DNA from: Methanosarcina spelaei
Lineage (GTDB): Archaea > Halobacteriota > Methanosarcinia > Methanosarcinales > Methanosarcinaceae
Assembly: GCF_002287235.1 (NCBI RefSeq)
Contig: NZ_LMVP01000168.1
Coordinates: 1-41,746 of the forward strand
Reading direction: 5' to 3'
DNA: 41,746 bases
Shown here: piece by piece, positions 21,933-40,338 of the stretch
Position numbering within the stretch: the first letter of the stretch is position 1
How the letters are laid out: every line of letters starts with the position of its first letter
The notes under the pieces: generated by a model
Databases searched by the model: none
Seen by the model: the letters and a program-made list of their open reading frames with translations, nothing else
Told to the model about the DNA's origin: nothing
Translations under genes and position numbers: made by a program

Positions 21933-22058
21933 CACTATTCCGTTATGGTATAAGTCGTGCCATAAGCTTTTTGGCAACCTTTCAAAGCAATCTTTCCAAA
22001 GGCTAGGTATAATTCACGTATAAAGATGTGGCATAAACGAGTTGTATTGAAGTTTTGT

Positions 22059-22141
22059 GCCGAGGTAGTCTAGTGGTAGGGCGCAAGCCTGGAAAGCTTG
22101 TGGGGCCTAGCCCCTCGGGAGTTCGAATCTCCCCCTCGGCG
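22059..22141 (+). tRNA. tRNA-Ser (anticodon GGA)
   Basis: The acceptor GCCGAGG pairs with CCTCGGC, with discriminator G and no encoded CCA. The anticodon stem CAAGC/GCTTG frames the loop CTGGAAA (anticodon GGA). A long variable arm (about GGGGCCTAGCCCC) makes it a class II tRNA, and the T arm is GAGTTCGAATCTC. 83 nt. Confidence 0.96.
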
Positions 22142-22180
22142 TATCTTCTTAAGCCTTTCTTGAATTATATTTATATATCT

Positions 22181-22440
22181 TTTCTAAGTTATGTTTACAA
22201 ACTTTTTCTAAATTATGTTTACAAACTTTTTCTAAATTATGTTTACAAACTTTTTCTAAATTATGTTTACAAACTTTTTCTAAATTATGTTTACAAACTT
22301 TTTCTAAATTATGTTTACAAACTTTTTCTAAATTATGTTTACAAACTTTTTCTAAATTATGTTTACAAACTTTTTCTAAATTATGTTTACAAACTTTTTC
22401 TAAATTATGTTTTCAAGTCTTTTCTAAATTATGTTTAAAT
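22181..22440. repeat. 24-bp iteron-like tandem array after tRNA-Ser
   Basis: Ten full copies and a partial eleventh of a 24-bp unit starting tttctaaattatgtttacaa and ending actt. Copies 2-9 are identical; the first and the last two vary. Each unit has a small inverted repeat, GTTT-AC-AAAC. The array starts about 40 nt after the tRNA. An ORF running through tRNA and array has no coding support. Confidence 0.92.
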
Positions 22441-32756: not shown

Positions 32757-34091
32757 ATGTTAGTGGTATCTCCAATGAAAAAAACAAATATGTCGGCAGA
32801 TGTTGGCAGGGCCGGGACTTTGAGTTTTGTTCATGCTGCGGATTTACACCTTGACAGTCCATTTACTGGGATCTCCGGGATTGATCCTGAGCTTGGGGAA
32901 AGGCTTGCGAAAGCTACCTTTCAGGCTTATGAGGCGATTATAGAGCTCTGTATGGATGAAGAAGTCGATTTTCTGCTTATTGCGGGGGACATATATGACA
33001 GTGCCGACAAAAGCCTCTATGCGCAGGTGAAGTTTGTAGAGGGGCTCAGGAGACTCGAAACCGCCGGAATTCAGGTTTTTATCTGCCATGGGAACCACGA
33101 TCCTCTTGACGGCTGGTCTGCAAGCCTTACATGGCCCGAAAATGTACATATCATGAGTGGGGAAGGGGCCGAGGTTGTGGAATTCAAAAAAGAAGGGAAA
33201 ACTGCCGCCGTCATAGTGGGGATGAGCTATCCGACACAGCACATAATGAAAAATCTTGTAAAAGACTTTCCAAGAAAAGAAGATAACTGGCCGTTTACCA
33301 TAGGGCTTCTGCATTGCAGCGTGGGAAGCAACCCGGAACATGATCCTTATGCACCCTGTACCCTGCAGGACCTCAGGGAGCTCAATTATGATTACTGGGC
33401 TCTTGGTCACATCCATACTCCTTCTGTAGTTTGCAAAGAAGCTCCGGTTGTGATATATCCCGGAAATCCGCAGGGCAGGCATCCCGGTGAAACCGGGGCC
33501 AGGGGGTGCTTTGTTGTGAATGTTTCCTCAGGAGGAGATACTTCTACCAGGTTTATAGAGACCGACTCTGTCCGCTGGCATATCAGGGAAATTTCCATAG
33601 AAGGTCTGGAAAAAGAAGGGGAGTTAATAGAAAGCCTTCAAAGCCAGCTTGACGATATAAGGGAAAAGTCAGGAGGAAGATCTGCTATTTGCAGGTTTAT
33701 TCTTAAAGGAAGGGGACCGCTGCATTACATTCTCAGTCAGGAGGGATTGCTTGAGGATCTCATGCGTTTGCTCAGGGAAGGAGAAAACTGGAGTAGACAG
33801 TTCATCTGGATAGAGCGCATTGAAAATGAGACGCTCTTTTCGGTAGAAAGAGAGCTTCTTCTGAAAAGGGAAGATTTTGTAGGAGATCTGGTAAAAATTG
33901 TAGAGGGCTTGAAGACTGATGAAAAAGCTCGAAATGAGTTCCGTGAGTTTCTTTCACCTCTTTTTTTTAGTTCCAGGAACGGAAGAAAATACATTACCAG
34001 AATTGATAACGAAGAGATGAGTTCTCTGCTTCAGCGAGCTGAAAATATCCTGCTTGATGCCTTACTTACGGAGGAAGATAATGAAAATTAA
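32757..34091 (+). CDS. YhaO-like DNA exonuclease (SbcD/Mre11-type metallophosphoesterase)
   Basis: 444 residues from ATG 32757; in-frame ATGs at 32775 and 32790 are alternatives. The calcineurin-like metal site is complete: HAADLHLD, IAGDIYD, CHGNHDP, LLHCSVG and ALGHIHTP. After about residue 270 it has a C-terminal region of YhaO type rather than SbcD cap. It overlaps the next gene by 11 nt, so the two products very likely form a complex analogous to SbcCD/Mre11-Rad50 that processes DNA ends. The activity is by homology. Confidence 0.9.
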   Translation: MLVVSPMKKTNMSADVGRAGTLSFVHAADLHLDSPFTGISGIDPELGERLAKATFQAYEAIIELCMDEEVDFLLIAGDIYDSADKSLYAQVKFVEGLRRLETAGIQVFICHGNHDPLDGWSASLTWPENVHIMSGEGAEVVEFKKEGKTAAVIVGMSYPTQHIMKNLVKDFPRKEDNWPFTIGLLHCSVGSNPEHDPYAPCTLQDLRELNYDYWALGHIHTPSVVCKEAPVVIYPGNPQGRHPGETGARGCFVVNVSSGGDTSTRFIETDSVRWHIREISIEGLEKEGELIESLQSQLDDIREKSGGRSAICRFILKGRGPLHYILSQEGLLEDLMRLLREGENWSRQFIWIERIENETLFSVERELLLKREDFVGDLVKIVEGLKTDEKARNEFREFLSPLFFSSRNGRKYITRIDNEEMSSLLQRAENILLDALLTEEDNEN

Positions 34092-37000
34092 TGCCATCCA
34101 TATTGATGGCTTCGGCAAGTTTTCCAGCTTGTCTATGGGAGATCTTCCCTCAGGTCTGGTCGTTTTTACAGGGGCAAATGAGGCAGGAAAATCGACATTA
34201 TTTACTTTTATCCGGAGAATGAATTTCGGTCTAACTAACACAAGGCTCTGCAACCTCTATCCTCCACTTGAAGGTGTAAAGCATGGGGGACGGCTTGCGG
34301 TGACTGATTCTACCGGAGACCGATGGGTCATAGAGAGAAATGCAGGCAGAAAAGAAGATGTAAAGGTTTTGCTTCCAGATGGGAATCTAGGAGGTAAGGC
34401 TGAACTCCTTAAACTATTAGGCTATGCGGACAGAAATGTCTTTGAAAATATCTATGCTTTTGGCCTTGAAGAACTACAGAGTTTCGAGACCCTGAACGAC
34501 CTGAGCATCAACAGTAAACTCTACAGTGCTGGCACGGGAGTTGGAGTTTCTATTTCAGGACTGATGAACTCGGTCAGCAGCATTGAAAACAATCTGTATA
34601 GGCCTAGAGGTAGCAAACCTCTTATAAATGAGCTATTAAGGGAGATAGGAAAAACTGAAGTAAAAATTTCCGAATTTGAAGGAGTCCAGAAAAAATACGA
34701 TTCGCTTCATTTCGAAATGGAACAGAAAACTCTGGAAATTAACCAATTAAAACAAAAGTCTCAGAATATAAGGAAAAAACTAAACCACATTCAAAACTTA
34801 ATTTCTGTCTGGGAAGACTGGAAGGTCTTCAGTGAGTCAAAAATCGCCCTTGAAAGCTTACCTGAGCTTGAAAGTTTCCCTGAAAAAGGGGGGGAAAAGC
34901 TTACAAGACTCAAGGAGCGAACTGGGGAAATAAGGGAGACTATCTCGAGGCTGCAGCAGGAACTGGATAAAAATGCCGTTAAAGAAATAAGCTTTTCACC
35001 TGACGAAAACCTTCTGCAGCAAAAAGATTCGGTGCTGGAACTGAGAAGCGGAATTGAAAAGTACAGGTCTGAAGAAAAAACGCTTCCTTCTCTGGAAATG
35101 AACCTCAGGCAGGAAAAAGCCGGGCTTACTGAGCTTCTTCTGGAACTCGGTCCGGCCTGGAACGAAGAATCTCTGGATCGTTTTGACCGCTCTATCCCTG
35201 CAAAGGAATCAGTTATTCAGATGCGAAGGTCAGTAGAGGAAATTGAAGATAAAGTAAAAGAGACCAGAAACGAACTTCAGCAGGTCCTTAACAGCATCGA
35301 AAGGATACTCCAGGAAAATAATCTTTTTGAAGAAAGCCTTCTTGTACACAGAGACCGGGTCATCGAACTTGGAAACGGAATCGAAAAATACCAGGCTGAT
35401 AAGGATTTTCTCCTTTTCGGAACTCAGGAACTTCAGGATAGGAAGGCTGAACTCAGGAAAACTCTTTCAGGACTTGAGGAGGGATGGGATGAAACTGTCC
35501 TTGATCTTTTCGAGCATTCCATCATTTCAAAAGAAACTGTGCTCAGAAAGCGAAGGGAAATGGAGGAGGCAGGAAAAATAATTGAGAGGCACTGTGACAG
35601 GCTTAAACTTGCTTCTGAGGAAATTAGAGAAGTCTGCGAGGAAATCGAGGCTCTAAAAGAGAAAATTGAGGTATACTCGACCTTTCCCAGGCCTGAAGAG
35701 CTGAAGCAGGAGCTTGAAGCTGTAAGCTATCTCAGGGTGACCCAACCTCTCCTGAGAGAAAAAGAAAATGAACTCAAAAATCTGGAAAAAGAAGAAATGC
35801 TTTTTACAGCTTTGGGACACAGAGAAACCGAAAATGAGAGCGGACTTCCACTCTGGCCTGCAGGAATGATTCTGCTTTCAGGTTGCATTGGCCTGGTTTA
35901 CGAAAGTATTAATGGTACTCTGCTTTCCGGACTTGTCATATTTCTTCTTCTTTTCACTACCTCTGCAGTATACTTTTTGAAAGCCACTAATAAGTCCTCG
36001 GTCCAGCCGGCATGGGAAGAACACCCGGAGAATACTAAATCCCGTAAACAGGATATAAAGGACTCAAAGGAAAAGCTGTTCAGAGAGATTGCTGCACTGA
36101 AAGTATCTATGAAAACCCGTGCAAAAAAATGTGGCTTTGAAGATATTCCTGATCCCTCAATAAGGGAAAAAAAAGCCGATGAACTGCAAAGGGCCATGGT
36201 TGAGTTGAAGACTGCCTCGGAGCTGCGCCAGAGGGAGGAAAAGCTCCAGAAGAAGCTGGATAGGTTAAATGCAAGTTATATGGGACTTAAGGATACTCTC
36301 AGGACCGAAGAGGCAAAGCAGGAAAAAGTTTTCCAGGAATGGAAGGTATGGCTCGTTTCTTCAGGGCTCAGCCCTGAGTTCTCTCCAGAGGATGTGCTTG
36401 AACTTGTTTCCGCAGTTGGCGCCTGCCTGGAAAAACAAAAGAATATAATAGAACTGGAAAAACAGGTAAAGCTCAAAGAAGCTACTGTTAGAAAATACGA
36501 AGAAAAAGCCTGTAAAGTTCTGGAAGCATGTGGAAGGCCTTTTTCAGGAATCATAATCGAAAGTGAAATAGCAAAACTCAGGGAAGACGTAAGTTTTGCA
36601 TTTAATCAGGCTGAAAGAGTGAGAAAACTTGAGGCTGAGTCCGAAGGCCTTAATCATAAAAAAGGAAAGCTGGAAGCCAGGCTCCTTGAGGAGAAAAAGG
36701 CAAGTGATGCCATATCCGAAAAGTGGACTAGCTGGCTTAGGAATTACGGACTTGATCCTTCGCTTTCAGTAGAAAGTGTGCTTGAAATTTTTTCGGTAAT
36801 CAGGACGTGCTTTGACAGGCAGCGGGCTATCCGGAAACTTGAAGAACAGGCAGCTTCCAGCAGAACGTCGATAGAAGCCTATGAAGCAAAAGTAGCCGGG
36901 GTCCTGCAAGAATGTGGACTTCCTTTTTCCGGACTCTCTTTTGACGCCCGGGTTGAAAAACTCCTTTCAGACTTTGAAAAGTCATCTGATGAGGCAAGAA

Positions 37001-37935
37001 ACCTTCAGCAGCTGAAAACGAAATCGAAAGAACTCAATATTGAACTTCAGGCAGCCAGGAATAAGTATGAAGAGGCTGCAGAAGAGTTTGCAGTTCTTCT
37101 TAATTCCGGTTATGCAGAGACGGAAGAAGAATTCTACGAAAACGCTCGGTTCTGGGCTCAACGAACCGAGCTGGAAACTAGGAAAAGAGAAGCTGAACAA
37201 CAAATCCGGCGGGTTTCCAGAGATGACGAAGAGTACAAGCTTTTAGTGGGAGAGCTGCAAGCCTCTGATCTCTCAGGTCTGAAAGACGAGAATTGCAGGC
37301 TTGAGGAGTGCCTGAAAACCCTGGAACAAGAGGTCTCAAATACTATAGACAGTCGTGGAGCGATACGAAACCAGATCGAACAGCTTGAACATGGAAGCGA
37401 AGGTTCCCTGGCAAGGGTAATGCAGGAAAGCCTGCTGGAAGAACTCCACGAAAAGTCAAGGGAATGGGCTTCTCTGGTTTTAGCCCGGGAGATCCTTGCT
37501 AAAGCAGTCAAAGTCTATGAAAAGGAAAGACAGCCTGCAGTTCTCGTGGAAGCCCAGGCTTTTTTCTCAAATATTACCGGAGGCAGGTACACAAGGATTT
37601 ATTCTCCACTCAACTCTACCGAAATTTATGTTGAAGACCGGAATGGACGTCAGAAGAGCATCCAGGAACTCAGTCGGGGAACGGCCGAACAGCTTTATCT
37701 CTCTCTACGCTTCGGTTTCATTAGAGAATTCGGCCGACATTCGGAATCTCTTCCAATTGTTTTTGATGACGTTCTGGTGAACTTTGATCCTGTACGTTGC
37801 AAAAGTACCTGTGAAGCCATAAAGGATCTTGCATCGGACAACCAGATTTTTTATTTCACTTGTCATCCAGAAACCGTACGGATGCTCGTTGAAAGTTTTC
37901 CTGAAGCCAGAGCTGTAGACCTTGATGCAGTATAA
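34081..37935 (+). CDS. YhaN-like SMC/Rad50-type ATPase with a transmembrane hairpin
   Basis: 1284 residues from ATG 34081, with GGAGG 5 nt upstream. Walker A is GANEAGKST (31-39); the ABC-type signature ELSRGTAEQLYLSLR is near 1195 and Walker B LPIVFDDVLVNFD near 1222-1234, so the head is formed by both ends. Between lie long coiled-coil arms. Where Rad50 has a CxxC zinc hook, this has none. Instead two hydrophobic helices occur at about 590-633 (PAGMILLSGCIGLVYES, LLSGLVIFLLLFTTSAVYFL). Both arms contain duplicated modules: a 109-residue repeat in the first and a 128-residue repeat in the second. The family is YhaN, the partner of YhaO. A membrane-tethered DNA-end processing role is inference. 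Confidence 0.9.
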   Translation: MKINAIHIDGFGKFSSLSMGDLPSGLVVFTGANEAGKSTLFTFIRRMNFGLTNTRLCNLYPPLEGVKHGGRLAVTDSTGDRWVIERNAGRKEDVKVLLPDGNLGGKAELLKLLGYADRNVFENIYAFGLEELQSFETLNDLSINSKLYSAGTGVGVSISGLMNSVSSIENNLYRPRGSKPLINELLREIGKTEVKISEFEGVQKKYDSLHFEMEQKTLEINQLKQKSQNIRKKLNHIQNLISVWEDWKVFSESKIALESLPELESFPEKGGEKLTRLKERTGEIRETISRLQQELDKNAVKEISFSPDENLLQQKDSVLELRSGIEKYRSEEKTLPSLEMNLRQEKAGLTELLLELGPAWNEESLDRFDRSIPAKESVIQMRRSVEEIEDKVKETRNELQQVLNSIERILQENNLFEESLLVHRDRVIELGNGIEKYQADKDFLLFGTQELQDRKAELRKTLSGLEEGWDETVLDLFEHSIISKETVLRKRREMEEAGKIIERHCDRLKLASEEIREVCEEIEALKEKIEVYSTFPRPEELKQELEAVSYLRVTQPLLREKENELKNLEKEEMLFTALGHRETENESGLPLWPAGMILLSGCIGLVYESINGTLLSGLVIFLLLFTTSAVYFLKATNKSSVQPAWEEHPENTKSRKQDIKDSKEKLFREIAALKVSMKTRAKKCGFEDIPDPSIREKKADELQRAMVELKTASELRQREEKLQKKLDRLNASYMGLKDTLRTEEAKQEKVFQEWKVWLVSSGLSPEFSPEDVLELVSAVGACLEKQKNIIELEKQVKLKEATVRKYEEKACKVLEACGRPFSGIIIESEIAKLREDVSFAFNQAERVRKLEAESEGLNHKKGKLEARLLEEKKASDAISEKWTSWLRNYGLDPSLSVESVLEIFSVIRTCFDRQRAIRKLEEQAASSRTSIEAYEAKVAGVLQECGLPFSGLSFDARVEKLLSDFEKSSDEARNLQQLKTKSKELNIELQAARNKYEEAAEEFAVLLNSGYAETEEEFYENARFWAQRTELETRKREAEQQIRRVSRDDEEYKLLVGELQASDLSGLKDENCRLEECLKTLEQEVSNTIDSRGAIRNQIEQLEHGSEGSLARVMQESLLEELHEKSREWASLVLAREILAKAVKVYEKERQPAVLVEAQAFFSNITGGRYTRIYSPLNSTEIYVEDRNGRQKSIQELSRGTAEQLYLSLRFGFIREFGRHSESLPIVFDDVLVNFDPVRCKSTCEAIKDLASDNQIFYFTCHPETVRMLVESFPEARAVDLDAV

Positions 37936-38390
37936 CAGAAAGTTAAACGTAAAAGAGCCTGATAGAGAGTTAAAGCGTAAAAGAGCTGGTGGATCATATA
38001 AGGAGCTGCTAATCCAAAAGTTTAAATTTACTTTTCTTAGTCAAATTTCAAATGACCATCGATTATTTAATAACAAAAGTGACTCCAAGACTTTAATTGA
38101 AATCTCATTTATTTTTGAATCTGTCAAATTCTCTCAGAATCCGACATCGGCGGCTAAGTAAATCTTGATTTTTTTCATCAAACTTTTTTACCAGGGAGCT
38201 CTACTTTTTCCAATATCTTTTTTCAAAAAGTATATTTTAATATTACATTGCAAATATATATCCGTGGGAAATATATCTTCTTGGGAAATATTTCGGGTTA
38301 ATGAGAACAAGTGCAGGTTTAAGGTCAGCGAGCTTAGTAAAGCCAACAAATCTCGTTTGATAAGTGATTAAGTAAAATTCTTAAGTAAAA
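37936..38390. other. AT-rich intergenic DNA and upstream leader of the second TPR gene
   Basis: No credible gene; the ORF 37922-38161 lacks a ribosome-binding site and any motif. A TATA-like TATATTTTAA lies at 38231-38240, so the transcript of the following gene would begin near 38262. Confidence 0.4.
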
Positions 38391-38633
38391 TTCTGATAAT
38401 GAGTTCTGGCAATGAGTTCTGGCAATGAATCCTGATAATGAATCCTGATAATGAATTCTGATAATGAATTCTGATAATGAGTTCTGATAATGAGTTCTGA
38501 TAATGAGTTCTGATAATGAGTTCTGATAATGAGTTCTGATAATGAGTTCTGATAATGAATTCTGATAGTGAATTCTGATAATGAGTTCTGGCAATGAATT
38601 CTGACAAACATATTTTCGGGTTCTGATAATATG
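38391..38633. repeat. Sixteen 13-bp tandem repeats upstream of a TPR gene
   Basis: Unit ttctgataatgag (variants ggc for gat, final aa for ag), 16 contiguous copies at 38391-38598, one decayed copy, and a last isolated one (ttctgataatatg, 38621-38633) that contains the ATG of the next gene. A period of 13 keeps several frames open on the opposite strand, producing three spurious ORFs. Confidence 0.92.
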
Positions 38634-39689
38634 AGTGCAACGGATAAAAGTCGTGAGTTTCATCACTCTAAGAGAGACTCATTTTATGAAGAGGAATTTA
38701 TCGGATTAGAAACGTATGAAGGAAGAAAAAACGATATTGAAGTCATTAACATTCTCGGGTCTTTAATGCAGGATGAAGACTTTTCATTAGAAGATGAGAG
38801 CAGCTTTACTATTAAGAAAATACTGGCTTTTCTTGAAAAAGAAATAACTGAAGATCAATATTTTACTGAGGCATGGCTGATTAAAGGTACTGTACTCTAT
38901 AAAACCGGCAAATACAGAAGTTCAATAGAAGCTTTTGACAGTGCCCTGGAAACTATACCAGAGGTAATTTCTAAAGAAAACCTGTACCTATGGAAAAAGA
39001 GTGACAATATAAACTATAAATATGCACTAAAGTTCAAGGCTCTTGCCTTATTCAAGCTTGGAAGATATAAAGAGGCAATGGATACACTTAACGAGATCCT
39101 TTCACTCTATCCAGAGGACGTTGAAATCCAGAAATATAAAAACATGTTGTCTAAACTCGAAGATGAAAGTCTGATTAAAGAGTTGAATACTCTCCCATAT
39201 AACTCTCCTGAAGTGTCCGGTAAGGGGCACAGAGACAGGCAGGTTTACGAACCGGATAAGTATGTGAGAGCGCTGGAAGAATTTGATAAATGTCTTGAAA
39301 TCAACCCGGATGATGCAGATATCTGGAACTATAAAGGCTCTGCTCTTTATACTCTTGGTAGATATGAAGAGGCTTTAGAAGCATTTGATAAATCTCTTGA
39401 GATTAATCCTAAAAATGAAAACGTTTGGAGTTTCAAAGGTTCTACTCTTTATATGCTTGATAGGCCTGAAAAAGCATTAAAGGCACTTGATAAAGCGCTG
39501 CAGAGTAACCCAAACAGACCTGAAGCCTGGTTCAACAAAGGGTCTATTCTCTTTGAACTCGGAAGATATAAGCAGTCACTATCTGCAGTAGAGAATACTT
39601 TAAGAATTAGTGCGGAAGACACAAATGCTTTGAATCTCAAAAACTCTATTCTTCATAAACTTGGGGAGGACAAAGAACCAATTACCTGA
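38631..39689 (+). CDS. TPR-repeat protein
   Basis: 352 residues. The N-terminal 70 are variable and acidic, then TPRs: AWLIKGTVLYKTGKYRSSIE, KFKALALFKLGRYKEAMDTL, and three consecutive canonical units containing WNYKGSALYTLGRYEEALEA, WSFKGSTLYMLDRPEKALKA and WFNKGSILFELGRYKQSLSA, each 34 residues long. It is soluble and without a signal peptide, probably a scaffold. The ATG at 38631 has no clear ribosome-binding site and overlaps the last repeat unit; a later in-frame ATG (near 38766) would remove the N-terminal 45 residues. Confidence 0.85.
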   Translation: MSATDKSREFHHSKRDSFYEEEFIGLETYEGRKNDIEVINILGSLMQDEDFSLEDESSFTIKKILAFLEKEITEDQYFTEAWLIKGTVLYKTGKYRSSIEAFDSALETIPEVISKENLYLWKKSDNINYKYALKFKALALFKLGRYKEAMDTLNEILSLYPEDVEIQKYKNMLSKLEDESLIKELNTLPYNSPEVSGKGHRDRQVYEPDKYVRALEEFDKCLEINPDDADIWNYKGSALYTLGRYEEALEAFDKSLEINPKNENVWSFKGSTLYMLDRPEKALKALDKALQSNPNRPEAWFNKGSILFELGRYKQSLSAVENTLRISAEDTNALNLKNSILHKLGEDKEPIT

Positions 39690-39865
39690 AAAGGATGACG
39701 AATCAATTATTTGTTTATTTCTCTAATATATTTCTTTCCAGACTCATATCTTGATGGATAAGTATTATCTTTTGAGGAAAATTTAAGGGATTATTTTCCC
39801 CTCTTAAAAATTCAAGACAAAAGGCGGTCTGAACCGAAGTTACAGTTTTTCCATCTTGTTTTTGG
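39690..39865. other. Convergent intergenic DNA
   Basis: Nothing recognisable; T-rich patches after the TPR gene could terminate it. Confidence 0.4.
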
Positions 39866-39943
39866 TCTTCTGCTTTAACCTTCTGTTTTAATCTTCTGTT
39901 TTAATCTTCTGTTTTAATCTTCTGTTTTAATCTTTCGCTTTTA
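39866..39943. repeat. 13-bp tandem array between convergent genes
   Basis: Six copies of tcttctgttttaa: four exact or with one change and two edge variants. It has the same 13-bp period as the array at 38391-38598 but a different sequence. Confidence 0.85.
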
Positions 39944-39966
39944 GCGGCTACCTGTCTGAAATCGAA

Positions 39967-40338
39967 TTATCTGTTCTGGATTCTGGCTCTGCATTCTTTG
40001 ATAACATCATCAGGGCTGGAGTATTCCTTATCCGGGCAGGCCTCAAGAGCTTTTATTATTACATCACGGACATGAAGATCTCTAGCTTCATTGACCAGCT
40101 CCTGTTTTGTTGCAGGATATTTCCTTTTATGGAAAGCTTCTACAGCCTTTTGAAAACCTTCAAATTCATTGACGACGTCGTCAGCGCTGTTGTATTTCCT
40201 GTCTGGAATGTTCTCAAGAGTCTGCATTGTGTCGCCACTAATATTCTGTTTTCGGGCTTCGTCGATGACCTGGTTCTTCGTTGCAGGATATTTTACATTT
40301 CCTAAAATGCTCTGAACTTCAGTAGTGCTTGCTTGCAT
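39967..40338 (-). CDS. Protein with two DUF2795 domains
   Basis: 123 residues made of two copies of the DUF2795 motif: KYPATKNQVIDEARKQNISG with IPDRKYNSADDVVNEF, then KYPATKQELVNEARDLHVRD with CPDKEYSSPDDVIKE. The family usually has a single copy and is of unknown function, widespread in archaea and actinobacteria. GGGGGAG lies 8 nt before the ATG. A duplicated aaaatcataatatggg lies just upstream (40354-40387 on the plus strand). Confidence 0.85.
   Translation of the reverse strand: MQASTTEVQSILGNVKYPATKNQVIDEARKQNISGDTMQTLENIPDRKYNSADDVVNEFEGFQKAVEAFHKRKYPATKQELVNEARDLHVRDVIIKALEACPDKEYSSPDDVIKECRARIQNR

Follow-up and report, generated by a model that had tools for sequence, protein, structure and literature searches.

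A 13-bp tandem array with a ladder of short reading frames in the probable 5' leader of a TPR-protein gene of Methanosarcina spelaei

The array and the upstream region of the TPR gene

The window, i.e., the whole stretch of DNA analyzed here (41,746 nt), is contig 168 of the Methanosarcina spelaei genome, which comprises 5.09 Mb in 559 contigs. It carries a gene for a TPR-repeat protein, whose start codon at 38631 is supported by comparison with orthologs. The 5' neighbours of the locus (32757-37935) encode a metallophosphoesterase and an AAA/SMC-like protein. The features at and upstream of the TPR gene are as follows.

38231-38239, + strand: TATATTTTA, proposed earlier as the TATA box; relatives have GTATNTTT or similar (alignment of 12 upstream regions)
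38252-38260, + strand: probable TATA box AAATATATA, inside the element TTGCAAATATATA (alignment of 12 orthologous upstream regions)
38368-38394, + strand: another 13-bp sequence, TTAAGTAAAATTC, present twice, directly 5' of the array and slightly overlapping it (Tandem Repeats Finder, sequences)
38391-38598, + strand: tandem array, 16 units of 13 bp without gaps, TTCTGATAATGAG/A (Tandem Repeats Finder, unit split, chance test)
38399-38626, + strand: 16 short frames in an overlapping ladder, one starting in each array unit, 15 with ATG and one with GTG (frame listing)
38599-38630, + strand: degenerate 17th unit (TTCTGACAAACAT...) and start region (TTCTGACAAACATATTTTCGGGTTCTGATAAT) (empty-site alignment with the array-less L018-L022)
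38631-39689, + strand: TPR-repeat protein, 352 aa (Pfam TPR_1, E=1.3e-39; orthologs at 58-94% identity)

The array is real. Tandem Repeats Finder (TRF), run on the window, reported 38391-38604 with a period of 13, 16.5 copies, 92% matches and 0% indels, and the sequence splits into 16 units of exactly 13 bp, which confirms the sixteen 13-bp repeats described in an earlier note on this DNA. With at most two mismatches allowed, the array unit matches 22 times on both strands of the window against 4.2 expected; 16 of these 22 matches are the array itself, and none of 100 shuffled windows reached 22. The earlier note had also placed ATGAG in most units. This ending is found in nine of the 16, but six units end in ATGAA and one in GTGAA, so that 15 units carry an ATG and the remaining one a GTG, which is also a start codon. 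Six identical monomers stand consecutively in the array, and the degenerate 17th unit is followed by the start region TTCTGATAATATGAG at 38621-38635.

We aligned 12 orthologous upstream regions, anchoring the alignment by a search for the TTGCAAATATATA motif (in a looser form for L025). The most conserved part of these regions comprises the TTGCAAATATATA element together with its unanchored neighbourhood (AAAAAGTAT...TATT). Positions 38252-38260 are TATA-like in the orthologs, whereas 38231 reads GTATNTTT or similar; therefore, the TATA box more likely lies at 38252-38260, and the site at 38231-38239 is more likely an upstream element than the TATA box it had been taken for. Transcription would be expected to start about 25 nt downstream of AAATATATA. 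The array lies between the promoter-like element, present in all 12 upstream regions, and the TPR start, and is therefore probably transcribed as part of the mRNA leader, in agreement with the earlier proposal.

Distribution and turnover of the array among relatives

A protein search of 59 genomes, including the genome under study (G000), gave 12 ortholog-like matches (L015-L026) whose upstream regions were compared; L027 was omitted from the leader comparison because its match spans residues 200-352 only. The 13-bp array is present in three of the 12 upstream regions, namely those of G000 and its two closest relatives, G001 and G019, which are 93-94% identical at the protein level; nine regions are without it. 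G019 is placed in the same genus. All nine array-less regions keep the promoter-like element, and their start region is similar (aligned for L018-L022). The TATA-like motif lies 358, 383 and 497 nt from the gene start in the three array species, the last value including an assembly gap, and 129-257 nt from it in the eight array-less relatives with a pattern match, where the aligned gene start used for the distance is 6 nt (L024) or 1 nt (L026) before the ATG; L025 has no match to the TATA-like pattern.

After excision of the array in silico, the G000 leader could be aligned to those of L018-L022 on both sides, and at the corresponding position L018 holds a single segment resembling the unit, TTTCTGATATG. 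The TPR gene had been thought to take its ATG from an isolated last copy of the repeat. The start region does hold this ATG, but it is not a clean copy and has two extra bases; because array-less relatives have a matching start region, it is probably older than the array.

A two-unit motif was found at this locus only in the own genome, and among the 39 genomes searched it occurred in G000, G001 and G019 and once in G018; a reversed control pattern gave one match in the same 39 genomes (G013). A dispersed satellite family was rejected on the basis of this single locus in the own genome and of the orthologous position of all matches in G001 and G019. A contig scan returned seven loci: the array is present in L045, which is the G019 contig, four loci come from other groups, and L046 and L047 appear to repeat the loci of G021 and G009.

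Comparison of the three array species with G000 as reference gave identities of 97.6% (G001) and 93.2% (G019) for the promoter and 5' leader, 93.8% and 100% for the last 32 nt of the leader, and 96.1% in both cases for the CDS. The array is 88.3% identical in G001 and 86.3% in G019, with gaps and length change, the G019 value being rough because of the assembly gap inside the array. Units next to the gene are largely common to the three genomes, and the interior units differ. The G001 array contains consecutive 26-bp dimers, with ACAATAAA, which has no ATG, as one unit of the dimer (four such units); in total, ATG is found in 10 of the 15 G001 units and is missing from five. G019 has 9-, 12- and 15-bp units that break the 13-bp phasing, with an ATG in 12 of 16 readable units and a GTG in one more. 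The sequence TTAAGTAAAATTC is present in two copies in G000 only and in one copy each in G001 and G019. Unit number and unit sequence thus differ between the species, and the earlier description of both as changeable was correct. No conserved uORF start codons were found in the leaders compared, given an array missing from nine of 12 and ATGs missing from a third of the G001 units. As judged from these alignments, the turnover is the behaviour of a minisatellite, unlike that of a conserved set of start codons.

Three further observations concern the relatives. Among the closer ones, with and without the array, conservation is high in the 5' leader part at 38295-38325 (GGGTTAAWGRGAA...TGCAGGTTTAA). 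In G007 (L026, 1184-1269), the leader is occupied by an imperfect, TTACTGATGT-like repeat of another kind, rich in ATGs, and the gene copy has an in-frame stop. Such a stop lies within the TPR ortholog match of L024, L025, L026 and L027 (G002, G011, G007 and G009), which suggests that the TPR gene may be dispensable in some lineages, although sequencing error is possible.

Short frames, initiation signals and RNA structure

According to the earlier note, the ATG of each ATGAG-containing unit opens a seven-codon frame encoding MSSDNEF. Seven-codon frames do start at 13 of the 15 array ATGs, but the exact peptide is encoded only six times; two ATG frames are longer, at 9 and 10 codons, and 9 codons are also read from the GTG. 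Twelve of the 16 frames end in a TGA that is followed 2 nt later by the next start codon (11 ATG and one GTG), and two further frames show an ATGA stop-start overlap. Between the stop of the last frame (38594-38626, MNSDKHIFGF) and the TPR start there are 4 nt. The rotation of the reading frame is automatic, because the unit contains an ATG and its length is not a multiple of three, and the unit sequence TGATAATGA by itself accounts for the stop-start arrangement. G000, G001 and G019 share the final 4-nt spacing, but with 94-100% DNA identity at this place the agreement is weakly informative. A 4-nt distance to the gene start is likewise met by one frame of the unrelated G007 repeat. In the array-less leaders other than that of G007, this spacing was not found, and the same listing gave few short frames near the start.

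Duplex energies were calculated with the anti-Shine-Dalgarno sequence. The 16 array starts have a median of -2.2 kcal/mol (nine of them at -2.2; range, +0.6 to -3.9), as compared with -2.1 kcal/mol for all 674 plus-strand ATGs of the window, including those of the array, and -7.1 kcal/mol for 21 gene-like starts, hand-picked from the ORF list as putative genes. No recognizable ribosome-binding sites were found at the array uORFs, the energies of which are those of an average window ATG. The TPR start itself has a weak Shine-Dalgarno sequence (-3.7 kcal/mol), and the best array start (38581, -3.9 kcal/mol) is equally good. M. mazei is named among the euryarchaea using mainly Shine-Dalgarno sequences in the part of PMC7531240 drawn on here. 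Folding of the leader RNA was no more stable than that of shuffled sequences (z = +0.82 and +1.19), and no Rfam match up to E=1 was obtained in 37900-40000; a structured RNA or riboswitch was rejected on both grounds.

Origin of the array and alternative explanations

The frequency of such arrays was estimated in the sister genome G001 from 19 stretches of 20 kb (380 kb); a 20th stretch, which holds this locus, was kept apart. Arrays with a period of 8-40, at least 3.5 copies and a TRF score of at least 50 were counted. A crude ORF caller together with TRF gave 61 arrays, 55 of which are intergenic (periods of 9-35), a number that may be an undercount because the ORF caller scored this very array as coding on account of its open antisense frame. 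Extrapolation from this sample suggests that there are probably hundreds of similar arrays per genome. Only six of the 55 intergenic arrays have at least 10 copies and one has at least 15, which places the 16-unit array among the longer ones. Leader-side cases, defined as array-and-strand pairs at most 500 nt upstream of a codirected ORF, numbered 42. Six of them have at least 0.6 ATG per unit, with the ATGs of four falling in more than one frame. The layout had been called unusual; that it is so in kind is not supported, since ATGs occur in most units of these six; they carry 3 to 7 ATGs each, and none matches the length of the present ladder.

Published data on nine Methanosarcina genomes, in the sections of PMC6749651 used here, give 35-406 satellites per genome, with units mostly of at most 30 nt, and require, for a prokaryotic satellite, that a decamer recur four or more times within 800 nt and that at least 60% of the repeats be identical in length. 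In the array, the decamer TTCTGATAATGAR occurs 10 times without mismatch within 38391-38585, and 16 of 16 units are 13 bp long. The combination of short units and many arrays per genome is also seen in the G001 sample, which was analyzed with programs other than that of PMC6749651. The new array is an ordinary example of the published Methanosarcina satellites with short units, below 30 nt (Subirana and Messeguer 2019, PMC6749651), which it resembles in genus, unit length, copy number and likely local origin. With respect to those sections of the report there is no difference of principle; what the present array has is an ATG or GTG per unit and a probable leader position. The Borg elements of Methanoperedens, as presented in the portion of PMC9879509 consulted, are alike in their head-to-tail units, both intergenic and genic, and in their recent origin and fast turnover, and slippage is discussed there as well; however, Borg units are described as perfect and extrachromosomal, whereas the units here are diverged.

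We consider it highly probable that the array is a non-coding minisatellite grown by slippage in the probable TPR 5' leader, and that its uORFs are a by-product. A single leader segment resembling TTTCTGATATG, present once in the array-less L018, would have been the seed. Either replication slippage or unequal recombination may have duplicated it in tandem in an ancestor common to the three close species, after which the interior of the array would have been altered separately in each species. Since the presumed seed holds TGA, TAA and ATG and three does not divide 13, a short frame would be opened by every unit, with the phase rotating from one unit to the next. About 200 nt of weakly structured, AT-rich leader would be added by the array; any influence that it has on translation is expected to be small and incidental, and it would probably lack a selected function. 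Some points run counter to the by-product reading: at 16 units the array is longer than most, and within G000 15 of the 16 units have kept to ATG and the remaining one has GTG; the 4-nt spacing in the three array species, as a weak point, and that of the G007 frame count here as well.

The ladder could also serve translational control, in which ribosomes would start at the array ATGs, terminate and reinitiate, so that unit number sets how many of them reach the TPR gene. The 12 frames that stop 2 nt before the next start, the two ATGA overlaps and the final 4-nt spacing, which recurs in G001, G019 and one frame of the G007 repeat, all speak for such control, as does a weak TPR start with which the array start at 38581 is comparable. 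In Haloferax, termination-reinitiation at overlapping stop-start pairs has been demonstrated (PMC6728339), and of the small ORFs of M. mazei that are translated but unannotated, 10% are located in 5'UTRs (PMC11456600), as stated in the parts of these papers used here. The Haloferax cases are alike in that a stop overlaps the next start or lies a few nt from it; however, those tested, in the same part of PMC6728339, are overlapping gene pairs, whereas the frames here have 7-10 codons, a weak Shine-Dalgarno sequence and putative translation. Translational control is nevertheless unlikely in view of the nine orthologs without an array, the five ATG-less G001 units, the broken phasing in G019 and array starts that match window ATGs rather than gene-like starts in their duplex energies. 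An evolved uORF leader is not supported, and the same ATG-less units and broken phasing, together with an average Shine-Dalgarno sequence and no excess RNA structure, argue against the functional ladder suggested by the earlier note. It is very unlikely that the frames form a coupled chain of mini-cistrons, along which ribosomes would hop from TGA across TA to ATG and be handed to the TPR start, with slippage in unit number tuning expression; if true, this would be a tandem-repeat rheostat for translation in archaea.

Tandem arrays change length by slippage, and unit number might vary from cell to cell and tune TPR expression through leader length, with the uORFs remaining untranslated. Such a contingency locus would agree with this general behaviour and with the unit numbers and total lengths, which differ between the three species (358, 383 and 497 nt from the TATA-like motif to the ATG, the last including the assembly gap). 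These differences, however, are seen between species, with one genome per species; the array is downstream of the promoter-like element, so that promoter-internal spacing is unchanged, and the many similar arrays elsewhere in the sister genome point to a general mutational process. We hold a contingency locus to be quite unlikely. Antisense coding, in which the array would belong to a reverse-strand ORF with 13-residue repeats (38334-38666, 110 aa; 38368-38640, 90 aa), is extremely improbable and was rejected. Three reverse frames are open across the G000 array, and long reverse frames exist in G001 and G019, but all reverse frames are open because the array unit is without a reverse-strand stop; moreover, the relatives have 9-, 12-, 14- and 15-bp units, and the ORF overlaps the TPR start and leader.

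The minisatellite reading means that local tandem duplication can place a ladder of start and stop codons in a probable archaeal leader without the need for selection. No description of an ATG ladder of this kind was found among the titles and abstract beginnings listed for the open literature on repeats, leaders and upstream frames, mainly of Methanosarcina. If translation were coupled along the array, the locus would offer a simple natural test of reinitiation in methanogens.

Other tandem repeats were observed in the window. Directly 3' of the TPR gene, at 39866-39934, there is another array with 13-bp units (TCTTCTGTTTTAA, 5.3 copies), its sequence unrelated to that of the first; the matching region of G001 is longer and can be read as 10.3 copies at a period of 13 or as 5.4 at a period of 25. 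A 24-bp repeat (22180-22437, 10.8 copies, 97% matches) occupies most of a 127-codon ORF at 22055-22438. Positions 1-1296 hold dense nested repeats with periods such as 45, 60, 63, 108 and 327, and as these periods are mostly multiples of three, this region possibly encodes a repeat protein.
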